From Microbacterium allomyrinae (lineage in GTDB: Bacteria; Actinomycetota; Actinomycetes; Actinomycetales; Microbacteriaceae): a DNA stretch of 64,000 bases. Positions 39,819-62,513 of the stretch are shown piece after piece (positions within the stretch are counted from its first letter, which is position 1; every line of letters starts with the position of its first letter). The DNA lies in contig NZ_JAGTTN010000008.1 of NCBI RefSeq assembly GCF_020682705.1, forward strand, positions 62,001 to 126,000, in the 5' to 3' direction. The notes beneath the pieces are model-generated. The model saw only the letters and a list, made by a program, of their open reading frames with translations. It had not been told where the DNA came from and made no database searches. The translations under genes were made by a program, and so were the position numbers.

Positions 39819-40342
39819 CCACCGCGACGATCCAGACCATCGCCACTCCCGACGGCGGATTCACCCTCCTCGCCGACGAGGCCGGGCATGTGCTCGCGTC
39901 GGGCTGGACCGCGGATGCCGGACGCATCCTCGAGCGGCTGCGGACGGCGGATCGGCCGTCGACCGTGACCGCCTTCGACACGAACGCGCCGCAGACGGAT
40001 GCCGCCGCCGCCGTCGCCGCGTACTACGAGGGCGAATTGTCCGCGATCGACGACGTCCGGGTGGCGCAGCGCGGCACCGAGATGCAGCGGGCCGGGTGGG
40101 AGGCCCTCCGCCGCATCGAGCCGGGGCATCCCCTGACCTACGCGGAGTTCGCGATCCTGCTCGGATCGCCGAACGCGGTGCGGGCCGCGGCATCCATCTG
40201 CGCCCGCAATGCTCCCGCGCTCTTCGTCCCGTGCCATCGGGTGCTGCGCACCGGGGGAGCGCTCGGCGGGTTCGCGTGGGGTCTCGAGGTCAAGCGCAGT
40301 CTGCTCGAGCGCGAGGCCGGGGTGCCGGCGCTGATCGGCTGA
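39815..40342 (+). CDS. ogt: methylated-DNA-protein-cysteine methyltransferase
   Basis: 175 residues from ATG 39815 (AGGAGG upstream, four-base overlap with the ada-alkA gene). The C-terminal domain has [30 protein letters not shown] and the active site PCHRV with Cys140, then [19 protein letters not shown]. It takes methyl or larger alkyl groups from O6 of guanine onto Cys140 and is used up. Coupled to Ada-AlkA, forming an adaptive alkylation-repair operon. Confidence 0.96.
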
Positions 40343-40399
40343 CCCACCGGCGGTCGCCGATCCGCGCGGGAGGTCTTCCGGGGGACCGGAAAGCGCTTG

Positions 40400-40429
40400 T
40401 TGCTTTCAGCGAATCCTCAGGTATAGCCT
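40400..40429 (+). promoter_or_regulatory. promoter of the leader peptide and exporter operon
   Basis: TTGCTT at 40400-40405 and TATAGC at 40422-40427 (spacer 16), or TAGCCT at 40424-40429. A GAAAGC/GCTTTC inverted repeat (40389-40394, 40402-40407) overlaps the -35 side and may bind a regulator. Transcription would begin near 40435. Confidence 0.5.
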
Positions 40430-40493
40430 AGAGGGCTGTCGCGTCGCCACTTCGGAGGCGCCCCAGCTACTCACCGAGCCCAAGGAGGACGCC

Positions 40494-40574
40494 ATGCATC
40501 AGGCCGCCATCGTCGCGAAGACCGCCTTCGTCCTCGGGTTCGCCGGGTCGACCCGGCCTCGTATTCAGGGGTAG
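40494..40574 (+). CDS. 26-residue leader peptide upstream of the ABC exporter
   Basis: ATG 40494 is preceded by a near-perfect AAGGAGGA site nine bases upstream, the strongest in this region. The product starts MHQAAIVAK, has a hydrophobic middle and ends RPRIQG before TAG. Too short for a normal gene search. The following 165 bases contain three hairpins before the exporter start, the layout of a ribosome-stalling attenuator that senses an antibiotic or other translation problem. Homology unknown; function inferred from layout only. Confidence 0.6.
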
Positions 40575-40591
40575 TCGCTCGTCCGCAGGTC

Positions 40592-40679
40592 CCGGCTTCG
40601 GCCGGATTCGGCATATCGCCGTCATTCGGAGCGTTCCCTCCTCGGGAGCGCTCCGCCGCGCCCGACAACCCGGTTGTCG
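40592..40679 (+). promoter_or_regulatory. three hairpins between leader peptide and exporter (candidate attenuator)
   Basis: Hairpin 1 (40592-40605): CCGGC-TTCG-GCCGG, with a very stable UUCG loop. Hairpin 2 (40627-40655): 12 base pairs, CGGAGCGTTCCC with GGGAGCGCTCCG, one G-U pair, five-base loop. Hairpin 3 (40663-40679): CGACAACC-C-GGTTGTCG. No long T-run follows hairpin 2, so termination may be Rho-independent only weakly or the hairpins may block other signals. Confidence 0.55.
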
Positions 40680-40738
40680 AGCCTGTCGAAACACGACCCC
40701 GATCCCGGGTCATCCGCCACACCATCCCCACAAGGATC

Positions 40739-42598
40739 ATGACAACCACCGCCATTCCGCAGCCCCCAGAGCTGTCGCCACGGTCCGAGAAGTCCACCCT
40801 CAAATCCCTCGCGCGGCTCCTGCCGTTCGCCAAGCCCGTCCTGCCCCGACTCATCCTGGGCGCGGTCAGCGCGCTCGTCGCGAGCCTGCTCGCCCTGTCG
40901 ATCCCGCTCGTCCTCGAGGTCATCGTCGAGGGCCCGATCGCCTCGGGCGACTTCGGGCAGATCGCGTGGGGCGCGGCCGTGATCCTCGTACTGGGGCTGG
41001 CCGAAGCCGCCATGGTGTGGCTGCGTCGCTGGTTCGTGCTCGGGCCCGCGACCATGGTCGAGTACGAGATCCGTCAGACGTTCTACTCGCGCCTACAGCG
41101 CCTGCCGGTGTCGTTCCACGATCGGTGGCAGTCCGGACAGCTGCTCAGCCGGATGATGCAGGACATCAGCATGCTCCGCCGCTGGATGGCGTTCGGCGTC
41201 GTGCTGCTCGTCGTCAACGTCATCACCATCGCGATCGGATCGCTGCTGCTGTTCCGCTGGCACTGGCTGCTCGGCACGATCTTCCTCGTCACCTCGGCCC
41301 CGCTCTGGTACGCCGGGTACCGGTTCGAGAAGACGTACGGCACGCTCGCCCGCCAGTCGCAGGACCAGGCGGGCGACCTCGCGACATCCGTCGAAGAGAG
41401 CGTGCACGGCATCCGTGTCCTCAAGGCGTTCGGGCGCGGAAAGCACGCCCTCCAGAAGTTCACGAGGCAGGCCGAGACGCTGCGCGAGACCGAGCTCAGC
41501 AAGGCCCGCGCGGTCGGCTGGATCTGGTTCTGGCTGGTGCTGCTGCCCGACATCGCCTTCGCGCTGTGCCTGGGCGCCGGCATCTATCTGACAGCGCTCG
41601 GGCAGCTGCAGCCGTCCGAGCTCATCGCGTTCTTCGCGATGGCGACGGTGCTGCGCTGGCCGATGGAGTCGATCGGATTCCTGTTCTCGTTCCTGCTCGA
41701 CGCCCGCACCGCGACGGACCGCATCTTCGAGGTCTTCGACGAGGAGAACACCATCGTCGACCCCGAGGAGCCGACGTCGATCGAGAGCCCGCGCGGCGCG
41801 CTCGTGTTCGAGGGGGTGCACTTCCGCTATCAGGATGCCGCGACCCGCGAACGCGACCTGCTCGACGGCATCGACCTGGTGCTGGAGCCCGGCGAGACCA
41901 TGGCTCTGGTCGGCCTCACCGGTTCGGGCAAGACGACGCTCACGACGCTCCCGTCGCGCCTGTACGACGTGACCGGCGGCCGCGTGACCCTCGACGGCGT
42001 CGACGTGCGCGAGCTCACCCTGGCGGAGCTGCGCACGCACATCGGCATGGCGTTCGAGGACGCCACGCTGTTCTCGCAGAGCGTGCGCGACAACGTGCTG
42101 CTGGGCCGGGAGGACCTCGAGCCGGGAAGCCCCGAGGCTGAAGCGGTGCTGCGCGAAGCGCTCGGCGTCGCACAGGCCGGGTTCGTCGAAGATCTGCCCG
42201 ACGGCGTCGACACGATCATCGGCGAAGAGGGGCTCTCGCTCTCGGGAGGCCAGCGCCAGCGCCTCGCGCTCGCGCGCGCCGTCGCCGCGCGTCCGGCGGT
42301 GCTCGTGCTCGACGACCCGTTGTCAGCGCTCGACGTCGACACCGAGGCGCTCGTGGAGGATGCCCTCCGCGAAGTGCTGCACGCCACGACGGCTCTCGTG
42401 GTCGCGCACCGCCCGTCAACGGTCATGCTCGCAGACCGGGTGGCGCTCCTGGAGGCGGGGCGCATCACGGCGGTCGGCCGGCACTCCGATCTGCTCCGCG
42501 AGAGCGAGCACTACCGGCACGTGATCTCGAGTCTCGAGGTCGAAGAAGCCCGTCTGCGGGCCCGTCAGCAGGATCAGGACCTGGAGGTGACCCTGTGA
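40739..42598 (+). CDS. heterodimeric ABC exporter, subunit with degenerate ATP site (LDDP Walker B)
   Basis: 619 residues. Residues 30-330 are a six-helix type IV exporter membrane domain; about 350-600 the ATPase domain. Walker [11 protein letters not shown], signature [11 protein letters not shown], Walker [13 protein letters not shown]. The residue after the Walker B Asp is Asp, not the catalytic Glu, as in the degenerate half of LmrCD/TM287-288 type heterodimers. Drug or lipid export is likely. Start ATG 40739 has AAGGA six bases upstream. The second subunit starts inside its stop codon. Confidence 0.93.
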
Positions 42599-44412
42599 GC
42601 ACCGCGACCGTCACCGGAACCAGCGGCGAAGACCGCTCCGACTACACACGCGACGAGAGCAAGGCGGTCCGGGGGCGCTCGCTGCGCCTCCTCGGCTCGC
42701 TCATGGCACCCGTTCGCAAAGAACTCATCCTCGCCGGGATCGTGCTGGTCGTGTCGACGGCGCTGCGCGTCGCCGGCCCTGCGCTGATCGCGTACGGCCT
42801 GAACACCGCCCTGCCTGCCGCCGTCGACCAGATGAACTGGCTGCCGACCATCGGCGTCGTGCTCGTCTACCTCCTCACCGCGATGGGTGGTGCCGCGCTG
42901 ATCGGGTGGTACGTCGTGGTCGCTGCGCGCCTCACCCAGGCGATCATGCTGGACCTGCGCAAGCGCATCTTCCTGCACACGCAGCGGCTGAGCCTCGAGT
43001 TCCACGAGTCGTACACGTCGGGCCGCATCATCTCGCGCCAGACGAGCGACCTCGACACGATCCGCGAGCTCCTCGACGGCGGTCTCAACGAACTGGTGTC
43101 GGGCATCCTGTTCGGCGCCTTCACGCTGATCATGCTGCTGATCGTCGACTGGCAGTCCGGCGTGATCCTCATCGTGATGGGGCTGCCGCTGTTCCTGCTG
43201 ATGCGCTGGTTCTACACGCGCTCGCAGGTGGTCTATCGCGAGTCGCGGGTGATCAGCGCGAAGGTGATCGTCAAATTCGTCGAGACCATGACCGGCATCC
43301 GCGCCGTGAAGGCGTTCCGCAAGGAGCCCCGCAACGACGAGGATTTCGGCGCTGTGGCCCTGGACTACCGCGACGTCAACATGCGCTCCATCCGGCTGTT
43401 CGGCACGTTCGAGCCGGGGCTCATCGCGATCTCTGCGGTGACAGTCTCGGTGGTGCTCCTGTGGGGCGCCATCCGGGTGGTGGACGGGTCGATCCTGATC
43501 GGCACTCTGCTGGCCGCGGTCCTGTACGTCCGCAACTTCTTCTCGCCGCTGCAGGAGGTCGCGTTCTTCCTGAACTCGTACCAGTCCGCGACGGCGGCGC
43601 TCGAGAAGGTCTCGGGCGTGCTCGAGGAGGAGCCGACGGTTCCAGACCCGAAGAAGCCCGTGGACCTGTGGGCCGCGAAGGGGCACATCCGCTTCGACGA
43701 CGTGCTGTTCGGGTATGCCGAGGATCGCGTCATCCTGCCGGACTTCTCACTCGACATCCCGGCCGGTCAGACGATCGCGCTGGTGGGCACCACCGGTGCC
43801 GGCAAGTCCACGCTCGCCAAGCTCGTCTCGCGGTTCTACGACCCGACGCGCGGCACGGTCACACTGGACGGGGTCGACCTGCGGTCGCTGCACCCGAAGG
43901 ACCTCCGCCGCGCGATCGTCATGGTCACGCAGGAGGCCTACCTGTTCAGCGGTACGGTCGCCGACAACATCGCGCTGGGAAAGCCCGACGCGACGCTCGA
44001 CGAGATCAAGTCGGCCGCTCGCGCGGTGGGGGCGGATGCCTTCATCGAGCGACTGTCCGACGGCTACGCCACCGACGTCAACAAGCGCGGCGGCCGCGTG
44101 TCGGCCGGACAGCGCCAGCTGATCTCGTTCGCGCGGGCGTTCCTCGCCGACCCTGCCGTGCTGATCCTCGACGAGGCGACGGCATCGCTCGACATCCCGA
44201 GCGAGCGTCAGATCCAGGATGCGCTGCAGACGCTGCTCGCCGACCGCACCGCGATCATCATCGCGCACCGTCTGTCGACGGTGGCGATCGCCGACCGCGT
44301 GCTCGTCATGGAGCGCGGCCGCATCATCGAGGACGACGCCCCCGCGACGCTCATCAGCGGTGACGGCCGGTTCGCACGGCTCCACGCCGCCTGGCGCGAA
44401 TCACTCGTCTGA
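42595..44412 (+). CDS. heterodimeric ABC exporter, catalytic-site subunit
   Basis: 605 residues from GTG 42595, four-base overlap with the first subunit. Membrane domain at 35-335, ATPase domain at 355-600. Walker [11 protein letters not shown], Walker [13 protein letters not shown] with the catalytic Glu, H-loop IIAHRLST. Its signature reads VSAGQ instead of LSGGQ. This complements the partner: one ATP site would be formed from a good Walker B and a good signature, the other from two altered parts. Ends before a strong terminator. Confidence 0.93.
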
Positions 44413-58768: not shown

Positions 58769-59184
58769 GAGAGGTGCCGGCGGCCGGCGATCACGCCGAC
58801 CGTCACGGCGACGACGCCGAAGGCGAGGCCGATCCAGGCGTTGCCCATGCTCCACCAGGCGATCGTCGCCGAGGCGTAGACGAGGAGCTCGACGAATGCC
58901 CGCACGAACGGGTGGACGGCGAAGACCGCACGCGGCGAGACGAACAGCGCCCAGGTGAGGATCGCCACGGCGGGAGCGCCGATTCCGGCGACGATGTTCC
59001 ACGGGAACGGCCACATCGTGAAGCCCCACAGCGCAAGCGTTCCGAAGGCGAGGATCTCGCAGAGGAACGCCAGGATGTCGATCGCCGAAAGCGGTGCGCG
59101 CATTCCCGGTGCCGGCGCGGCGTTCTGCGCCGCAGCCTTGCCTGGGGGCATGGATGCGGGGGTGGCGTGGGGCGTGTCGGACAT
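58765..59184 (-). CDS. YrdB-like DUF2568 membrane protein
   Basis: 139 residues from ATG 59184, with TAGAAT six bases upstream. A low-complexity N-terminus of about 30 residues, then four helices (ILAFLCEILAFGTLALWGF, VAGIGAPAVAILTWALFV, VRAFVELLVYASATIAWW, GLAFGVVAVTVGVIAG). The AVHPFVRAFVELL stretch matches DUF2568/YrdB. Function unknown. Coupled by a GTGA overlap to the FAD oxidase gene downstream. Confidence 0.85.
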   Translation of the reverse strand: MSDTPHATPASMPPGKAAAQNAAPAPGMRAPLSAIDILAFLCEILAFGTLALWGFTMWPFPWNIVAGIGAPAVAILTWALFVSPRAVFAVHPFVRAFVELLVYASATIAWWSMGNAWIGLAFGVVAVTVGVIAGRRHLS

Positions 59185-59190
59185 CTCTCC

Positions 59191-59196
59191 ATTCTA
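59191..59196 (-). promoter_or_regulatory. -10 box TAGAAT of the YrdB-like gene (minus strand)
   Basis: TAGAAT-GGAGAG-ATG: either a leaderless mRNA or one using GGAG directly before the ATG. Confidence 0.5.
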
Positions 59197-59497
59197 CGGC
59201 GCGGCCCCGAGAGCCGAGGGGCGCACGGTCCGGCAGGAGAGGCCCCGTGGAATGCCCGGCCGCGCGCGGGCGAGCGTCGCGGCGGGGTGGGGCGGGACGG
59301 GGCGGGACGGGGCGGGGCGGGGCGGGGCGGGGCGACGGATTCGAGACTCCGCGTCATGAAACGGCGACGCGGACGTCTTGCTCAGTGACGGTCGTCGCGA
59401 ATTGGGGACCCGGGTACGCCCGCGGGCGAACGCGGCGCCGTCGGCGCGGAGGCGACTCGGGGGAGGGGCCTCCGCGCCAGGGCGTCCTCGAGCAGAC
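59197..59497. other. intergenic region with G-rich tract between nagA and the YrdB-like gene
   Basis: It holds the G-rich repeat at 59282-59333 and the upstream promoter part of the YrdB-like gene. The rest is GC-rich without a convincing coding frame, tRNA or terminator. Confidence 0.4.
59282..59333 (+). repeat. G-rich pentamer repeat (GGGGC/GGGAC)n
   Basis: About 52 bases of GGGGC and GGGAC units in close phase on the plus strand, with more than ten G-runs of three or more. Classic G-quadruplex-forming pattern, 100-150 bases upstream of the YrdB-like start codon. Confidence 0.85.
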
Positions 59498-62370: not shown

Positions 62371-62376
62371 TATGCT
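62371..62376 (+). promoter_or_regulatory. -10 box TATGCT of the glyA riboswitch transcript
   Basis: TATGCT lies just before the ZTP aptamer, so transcription would begin near 62383, at the start of the aptamer. The -35 is weak. Confidence 0.45.
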
Positions 62377-62379
62377 CGG

Positions 62380-62458
62380 GATGTCGCGACTGGCGTTGAG
62401 GTGGACTACCACCGGGGAGCGACGGACTACGGCATTCGACCGCACGCCTGGGCCGATG
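62380..62458 (+). ncRNA. ZTP (pfl) riboswitch
   Basis: The conserved parts appear in order: CGCGACTGGCG, a hairpin GGTGGACTACCACC, then CGGGGAGCGAC, a variable linker, and CCGCACGCCTGGGCCG. These match the known pfl consensus (CGACUGGCG ... CCACCGGGGAGC ... CCGCCUGGGC). It senses ZTP/ZMP, which build up when 10-formyl-THF is short, and turns on one-carbon genes. The downstream genes glyA and folD are typical targets. The link to the expression platform before ATG 62514 is not clear by eye. Confidence 0.88.
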
Positions 62459-62513
62459 TGATTCCCGGTACCCCGTGCCGCGCACCCCGAAAGCCGCAGT
62501 CAAGGAGATCGTC

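Follow-up and report, generated by a model that had tools for sequence, protein, structure and literature searches.

A conserved leader reading frame before an ABC exporter operon of Microbacteriaceae: a candidate translation-sensing attenuator

What is the role of a short reading frame with a strong ribosome-binding site, followed by a series of hairpins, in front of two ABC exporter genes that begin from a weak site of their own? We addressed this question through computational analysis of a 64,000-nucleotide stretch of DNA, hereafter the window, whose positions are used throughout. The locus was placed on contig C17 of a 4.02 Mb genome, where the gene order is an Ada/AlkA-like gene, an ogt-type methyltransferase gene, the leader region and two ABC half-transporter genes (Table 1). 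A preliminary description of the region had pointed out that the ribosome site of a frame of 26 codons is near-perfect, as opposed to the exporter's weak AAGGA, and the sequence agrees. It had also likened the layout, a leader frame and hairpins before an ABC exporter, to that of known translation-sensing attenuators, and the layout indeed matches theirs. Finally, it had not recognized the leader peptide, and neither did we: the peptide belongs to no Pfam family, and no published description of the leader was found in the open-access full-text literature.

Table 1. Features of the leader region and exporter operon, in window coordinates.
Feature	Position	Strand	Basis or remark
Candidate promoter: -35 TTGCTT, 18-nt spacer containing TCAGCGAATCCTCAGG, -10 TAGCCT	40400..40429	+	Similar sequence before relatives' leaders
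Predicted transcript 5' end (AGGGCUG) and 5'-terminal hairpin P1	40432..40468	+	Pattern; predicted folds
Leader Shine-Dalgarno sequence, AAGGAGG	40482..40488	+	Sequence; AGGAGG or GGAGG in relatives
Leader ORF, 26 codons, ATG...TAG	40494..40574	+	Sequence; comparison with relatives
C-rich, G-poor leader-exporter interval, candidate rut region, 164 nt	40575..40738	+	C-G +0.152
Hairpin P2, CCGGC-UUCG-GCCGG	40592..40605	+	77.0% of cells paired in 26 relatives; loop varies
Hairpin P3, 4-pair, loop AUAUC	40609..40621	+	98.1% of cells paired in 26 relatives
Hairpin P4, 12-nt arms 40627-40638/40644-40655, 92% complementary	40627..40655	+	Contains conserved GCGUU 40631-40635
Short palindrome, lineage-specific	40660..40682	+	Columns are gaps in most of 26 aligned relatives
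Hairpin P6, GACCC...GGGUC	40695..40711	+	94.4% of cells paired; two-sided changes at 2/5 pairs
Exporter ribosome site AAGGA (40732-40736) and start codon ATG (40739)	40732..40741	+	Sequence
ABC exporter subunit A	40739..42598	+	PF00664, PF00005; LVLDDP at Walker B region, non-canonical
ABC exporter subunit B	42595..44412	+	PF00664, PF00005; LILDEA, canonical; 4-nt overlap with A

Pfam analysis identified ABC_membrane and ABC_tran domains in both exporter subunits. The pairing of one non-canonical with one canonical site is the asymmetry of heterodimeric exporters, such as BmrCD and TM287/288. The many exporter matches include YheH (BmrD) and TM_0288, plus tet-type exporter models below NCBI's cut-offs, and among the 25 NCBIfam matches listed per subunit, all lie under the curated cut-offs. 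The operon product is a putative heterodimeric, drug-type ABC exporter. Of 299 Microbacteriaceae genomes, 261 contain an exporter match at E 1e-80, paralogues included. Among named genomes, 73 of the 80 loci nearest by exporter are labelled Microbacterium, on which basis we assign the window to this genus. Two loci labelled Planococcus (L052) and Agrococcus (L103) encode exporters that are 85% and 91% identical to that of the window, respectively; mislabelling or mixed bins may account for this. The genome also contains a paralogue of subunit A (G000 C15:193648-195405, 52% identity), and no leader ORF was found in the region upstream of it (L227) under a still looser rule that allows GTG starts. 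At the start of the exporter gene, AAGGATCATGAC (40732-40743), which includes the spacer between the ribosome site and the ATG, is identical in 26 of 26 aligned sequences.

The occurrence of the leader in relatives was evaluated using a strict rule, requiring 14-40 codons, a GGAGG-type site and a position 60-350 nt upstream of the start of the exporter match, with 40 rounds of dinucleotide shuffling as the chance control. Conservation of the frame and hairpins in relatives had been set out beforehand as a test on which the attenuator proposal could fail; apart from two hairpin details described below, the proposal withstood it. Among 79 close exporter loci (the 80 minus L103, which begins inside the exporter), the frame was kept in 76, as compared to a shuffled mean of 0.025. 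Two of the three misses have a leader nonetheless: in L045, a run of N shifts the search window, and L085 uses a GTG start. Between its leader and exporter, L045 contains CGCGAACCAATCCCAC repeats together with the run of N. The third, L111, is without a leader, and its promoter and first transcribed bases remain.

We further evaluated 59 loci from 48 other Microbacteriaceae genera, each genus being represented by one or two loci among its best listed matches (60 regions, from which L199 was removed as the same place as L154). The strict rule was passed by 26 of these loci (shuffled, 0.05) and a looser rule by 39 (shuffled, 0.32), leaving 20 without a leader. By the looser rule, a leader was detected in none of 27 related loci from other families of the order (28 loci minus L227, the genome's own paralogue); the still looser rule with GTG starts yielded a frame in 1 of the 28. 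The leader appears to be a feature of Microbacteriaceae, in most though not all of the sampled lineages. Because the frame is absent from L111 and from the 20 sister-genus loci, mostly with the promoter and first transcribed bases retained, the leader is dispensable.

Further comparisons were based on a set of 91 loci, consisting of 75 loci (window included) and 16 added ones; loci with no recognizable exporter start or transcript start were excluded. Codon, alignment and folding-state tests were performed on the 26 of these loci closest to the window, referred to here as the window clade. In this clade, 241 of 291 pairwise gaps in the leader are multiples of three, a count of non-independent pairs that share history. 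In the leader-exporter interval of the same 26 sequences, the corresponding number is 384 of 1986, a proportion hardly expected if either strand there encoded a conserved protein. Across the 91 loci, the start, ribosome site and stop of the leader are kept, while its length varies from 18 to 33 codons. As judged from these patterns, the leader ORF is apparently translated.

The peptide itself is poorly conserved. Within the window clade, 38% of leader amino acids differ, versus 12.5% over exporter codons 1-500, such that the peptide evolves approximately three times faster. Between genera, no recognizable similarity of the peptides was found by eye. The two halves of the frame behave differently. 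In the first half (40497-40535), synonymous changes reach 0.43 of the expected number, below even the minimum among 71 exporter windows (0.58), and the rates of change at the three codon positions are about equal (0.178, 0.161 and 0.191). In the second half, these rates are 0.297, 0.306 and 0.449, a third-position excess. This comparison shows a putative constraint on the first half at the level of nucleotides, not of amino acids, for which the attenuator model offers no reason.

The end of the peptide has features specific to the window clade. An [RK]x[RK] motif is present in 25 of its 26 leaders (shuffled, 11.7), which are mutually related; the usual form is R-x-R, with the last Arg four residues from the end of the peptide. 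Ribosomes stall at this type of motif in the presence of erythromycin (PMC6238534). In other Microbacterium leaders, the motif occurs in 12 of 65, below the shuffled value of 16.4, and in leaders of other genera in 17 of 37 versus 11.6, a modest excess. As the motif is not enriched in other Microbacterium, if drugs are sensed, either the drug or stall site differs or stalling is not peptide-specific. The last six leader codons of the window clade are rarer (0.65) than those elsewhere (0.88 and 0.82), the value for gene ends in the window being 0.80. Over all 91 leaders, the rare codon ATT encodes 10 of the 21 isoleucines that fall within the last six positions, versus 11 of 114 earlier. Neither the leaders listed nor their pooled composition contained the run of codons for one amino acid by which an amino-acid attenuator would be identified.

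Upstream of the leader, we take TTGCTT and TAGCCT to be the -35 and -10 boxes on the basis of the consensus; a sigma-70 scan did not report this pair. The 44-nt promoter pattern, allowing up to 3 mismatches, occurs at one place in the genome. A pattern combining the -10 box and the first transcribed bases, TANNCTNNARRGCTG, is found once each in 157 of 202 loci, a set that includes several copies of one place, with a few matches off the equivalent place. A stricter pattern, TANNCTGNARGGCTG, has no match in the genome itself, the window having CTAG there. The idea that the promoter and hairpin element mark a regulon was not supported, each having one strong genome place.

The predicted transcript begins with hairpin P1. 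Of 91 predicted folds, 83 have four or all of the five bases of its 5' arm in pairs, and the mean z is -1.44; P1 of the window itself is weak (z -0.37). When arms were swapped, the average was -16.6 versus -20.0 for a hairpin's own arms. In 36.8% of cases (43.3% in the leader control), the swap made the pairing no worse, and the result is therefore weak. The leaderless loci L155, L159, L163, L187, L188, L195, L197 and L111 keep a promoter-like sequence and first transcribed bases such as AAGGCTGC or GGGCTG, and several leaderless relatives have a 5'-terminal hairpin. In these relatives, the promoter and 5' hairpin may constitute a separate layer of control.

Between the leader and exporter, the preliminary description had noted three hairpins: one with a UUCG loop, one of 12 pairs and a short palindrome. 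All three are present in the window and the interval does contain conserved stems, but relatives retain neither the UUCG loop nor, for the most part, the palindrome. Beyond these three, we identified the 5'-terminal hairpin and the conserved hairpins at 40609-40621 and 40695-40711. The palindrome was also considered as a dispersed repeat; only one further place in the genome lies within 3 mismatches, and the idea was dropped. Taken together, P2, P3, P4 and P6 have 83.8% of cells paired, P4 and P2 being the least regular. The two parts of P4 are paired in 81.0% and 71.5% of cells in the relatives, where the stem is imperfect. The predicted probability of P6 in the window itself is only 0.05-0.21. 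The covariation analysis proposed at the outset, performed on the relatives, gave a score of 0.124; the 500 shuffles averaged 0.102, and none attained this score. The excess is small, and sequences that share ancestry can outscore shuffles of this kind even if unstructured. Taken as a whole, the 326-nt leader region outperformed 99 shuffles out of 100 in folding (z -2.38), and the z for folding of the interval is -2.66 in the window and -0.62 on average.

P3 followed by GCGUU is present in 41 of 91 loci, the shuffled expectation being 1.25; among 41 loci of other genera that have a leader, none contains it. In 30 loci selected for the stem, the GGCAU of P3 is invariant and the stem varies on both sides. 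This covariation is partly by construction, because the 30 loci were chosen for a stem of at least 4 pairs. A model of P3 and GCGUU (R1), which includes the window's own sequence, has one strong place in the genome, this locus, at 51.7 bits, the next scoring 19.9. In 99 Microbacterium genomes, R1 has some match at E 0.1 in 96 and a match of at least 34 bits in 20; in each of the 17 of these 20 that were compared (the other three being G003, G046 and G079), a strong match lies within ~250 nt of upstream-region matches. A search of 40340-40800 against Rfam 15 yielded no match at the gathering score and three matches far below it. In the 64-kb window as a whole, the sole Rfam match at gathering score is a ZMP/ZTP riboswitch at 62376-62460 (+), 56.2 bits.

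The base composition of the interval is also consistent across loci. The mean C-G of the interval over the 91 loci is +0.217 (sd 0.033) and that of the leader +0.111, as compared to +0.022 (n = 85, sd 0.110) for control intergenic regions of the same loci. Intergenic regions of the window average +0.015 (n = 21, the leader-exporter region among them). The window's own value of +0.152 does not stand out from these controls (sd 0.110), and it is the agreement among loci that constitutes the signal. Another upstream intergenic region of the window, 59030-59377, has a C-G of +0.15. The bias accompanies the leader: it is +0.186 in leader-bearing loci of other genera (n = 40), weaker in leaderless relatives (+0.080 for 14 of 20, based on the last 140 nt before the match) and +0.010 in loci outside the family (n = 27). 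Rho requires RNA that is C-rich, G-poor and untranslated. On compositional grounds, the interval is a candidate rut-like region, as a property of the group, and C-rich composition is no proof of Rho.

We consider the best explanation to be a translation-sensing upstream-ORF attenuator of the exporter operon, perhaps acting through Rho, with a probability of roughly one half. To the extent that sequence comparison can establish it, the leader, promoter, hairpins and composition together make up a conserved, non-random regulatory leader. The translation state of this leader is likely to control the exporter, and Rho is the best, albeit uncertain, candidate for the executor. We infer that the leader would be translated in the cell and that antibiotics may provide the inducing signal. 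Specifically, transcription would start at the conserved promoter ~60 nt before the short leader ORF with its strong site. In undisturbed cells, ribosomes would presumably finish the leader and then leave. The 164 nt of untranslated, C-rich and G-poor RNA would serve as the entry for Rho, and most transcripts would end before the exporter gene or early in it. Under ribosome-targeting drugs or other translation stress, ribosomes would be slowed or held on the leader. A held ribosome would cover the C-rich stretch or stay coupled near it, such that Rho would be kept off and the exporter made. The peptide would carry little weight, except perhaps at its end in the window clade, where R-x-R and the rarer codons may favour stalling.

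The evidence that leads to the attenuator reading is the leader frame above chance, its gaps in threes, the conserved hairpins and the C-rich interval, together with the promoter and element found at a single strong place each, the asymmetry of the exporter pair, the [RK]x[RK] of the window clade and the terminal enrichment of rare ATT. Against it we count that the C-G of the window is within the control spread, that the leader site is predicted to be more paired than that of the exporter, that the leader is dispensable and [RK]x[RK] not general, that the predicted stems respond little to ribosome position, and that the nucleotide-level constraint in the first half of the leader is unexplained.

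The presence of several conserved stems between leader and exporter would also fit a classical refolding attenuator of the BmrB/erm style, in which a stalled ribosome shifts the stems and thereby opens a terminator or the exporter site. The preliminary description had favoured such a change of folding on stalling, and here our results depart from it: the predicted stems were nearly unchanged, no terminator was detected and the exporter site was half open throughout. A simple consensus scan of 40300-40800 yielded 0 terminator-like sites, and no T-run follows the stems. In the ribosome-state test, in which we removed the RNA that would lie under a ribosome positioned on codon 8 or on the stop codon (three states, 26 sequences), values ranged from 0.58 to 0.68 for P3, from 0.34 to 0.43 for P4 and from 0.58 to 0.59 for the exporter site, the largest mean stem change with ribosome position being 0.10 (P3). 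The exporter site was 0.49 unpaired when the leader was included in the fold and 0.48 when it was not (91-locus mean; 0.58 in the window). The leader's own site, with a predicted mean openness of 0.22 (0.32 for the window), is mostly paired in these folds and less open than the exporter's, which speaks against efficient initiation on the leader. These folds are thermodynamic predictions that ignore cotranscriptional kinetics, and a half-open site leaves room for partial occlusion. Pairing of the leader stop region with downstream RNA is striking by eye in the window clade as well as in L061 and L072 (z 3.9 each) and L094 (z 2.2), but over 76 loci the mean z is -0.09, no better than shuffles; a long-loop duplex search for such pairing was too noisy to use. 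In L061, L072 and L094, it is the GCGUU element that could be the partner of the stop region. This element could also pair with the transcript 5' end, as proposed by RNAalifold, but the columns are near-invariant, 75 of 500 shuffles equalled the pairing and its mean probability in single-sequence ensembles is 0.00. With no terminator found, little predicted stem change and stop-region complementarity on average no better than chance, classical refolding is not supported, and we regard it as unlikely.

The leader could instead be a constitutive upstream ORF that protects or tunes the mRNA, through stability, re-initiation or basal translation, and senses nothing. The lack of recognizable peptide similarity between genera would fit such a role, as would the loss of the leader in several lineages that keep the promoter and first transcribed bases, and the 5'-terminal hairpin could stabilize the mRNA. 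The hairpin with GCGUU, at 41 of 91 loci versus 1.25, and the C-rich composition hint at a role beyond that of a spacer, however, and we are doubtful of this explanation. Small, often hydrophobic-basic peptides of 18-38 residues encoded directly upstream of an exporter might also be functional micropeptides, for example regulators or substrates of that exporter. This seems very unlikely given the threefold faster divergence of the peptide, the absence of a clear third-position excess in its first half and of similarity between genera, and an exporter in which Pfam analysis identified no peptidase domain. Finally, a chance frame accompanied by functionless GC-rich hairpins is scarcely credible: high-GC sequence folds easily and the leader coding region is slightly less structured than its shuffles (mean z +0.41 over 91 loci), but chance is contradicted by the shuffle controls for the leader and hairpin element and by the composition controls.

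An extension of the attenuator reading is that a sensor spanning the Microbacteriaceae reads completion of the ORF, not the peptide, using freely replaceable leaders and a C-rich spacer through which Rho or another factor would gain access to the message, and so ties the exporter to the state of the ribosome. We offer this as a tentative proposal that we consider rather unlikely. If true, the GGCAUA hairpin and GCGUU of Microbacterium, a conserved RNA element with no Rfam match, would be a new RNA motif, and a large, environmentally common actinobacterial family would keep a drug-type exporter under a translation-sensing leader. The arrangement would parallel BmrCD of Bacillus subtilis, but with unconserved peptides and no intrinsic terminator. 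Leader-ORF sensing that needs no dedicated arrest peptide would become directly testable in harmless soil strains, as would attenuation by Rho in Gram-positives of high GC content.

How does the locus compare with known systems? In Streptococcus pneumoniae, a transcriptional attenuator reportedly precedes patAB, which encodes a heterodimeric ABC multidrug exporter. In tnaC, Rho is blocked by a ribosome that stays on the stop codon of the leader, and the arrest peptide is tryptophan-specific; the leaders described here have no comparable peptide conservation. In terms of function, the locus comes nearest to bmrB in Bacillus subtilis and to toiL, discussed below. Translation of the small ORF bmrB is needed for drug induction of the ABC exporter pair BmrC/BmrD, and bmrCD is induced by antibiotics that target protein synthesis (PMC4191407). 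As at our locus, the small ORF lies just upstream of an ABC multidrug exporter pair and is associated with stem-loops. Both leaders contain rare codons; those of bmrB raise basal read-through and leave the lincomycin response unaffected (PMC4191407). An intrinsic terminator and stem-loops lie within bmrB (PMC4191407), whereas here the stems follow the ORF and a terminator was not found. The host of bmrB belongs to a different phylum, and bmrB is likened to our leader by layout, not by peptide alignment.

Two further upstream ORFs are relevant. The whiB7 upstream ORF of mycobacteria is likewise actinobacterial, a comparison made by description, and ribosome stalling there induces a drug-resistance factor; it controls a transcription factor and has a terminating leader hairpin (PMC13236596), whereas the target here is an exporter. 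In Escherichia coli, ribosome-targeting antibiotics of several classes are sensed by toiL, a short ORF upstream of topAI, with Rho-dependent termination within the topAI gene as the end result (PMC12121999), whereas the candidate Rho region of our locus precedes the gene. The topAI ribosome site is hidden by pairing with toiL (PMC12121999), whereas the exporter site here was about half open in all folded states. Because an intrinsic terminator was not found and a hidden ribosome site has no clear support from the folds, we file the locus as neither the BmrB nor the toiL subtype, and go no further than to class it with bmrB and toiL, in a general sense, as a leader-ORF attenuator.
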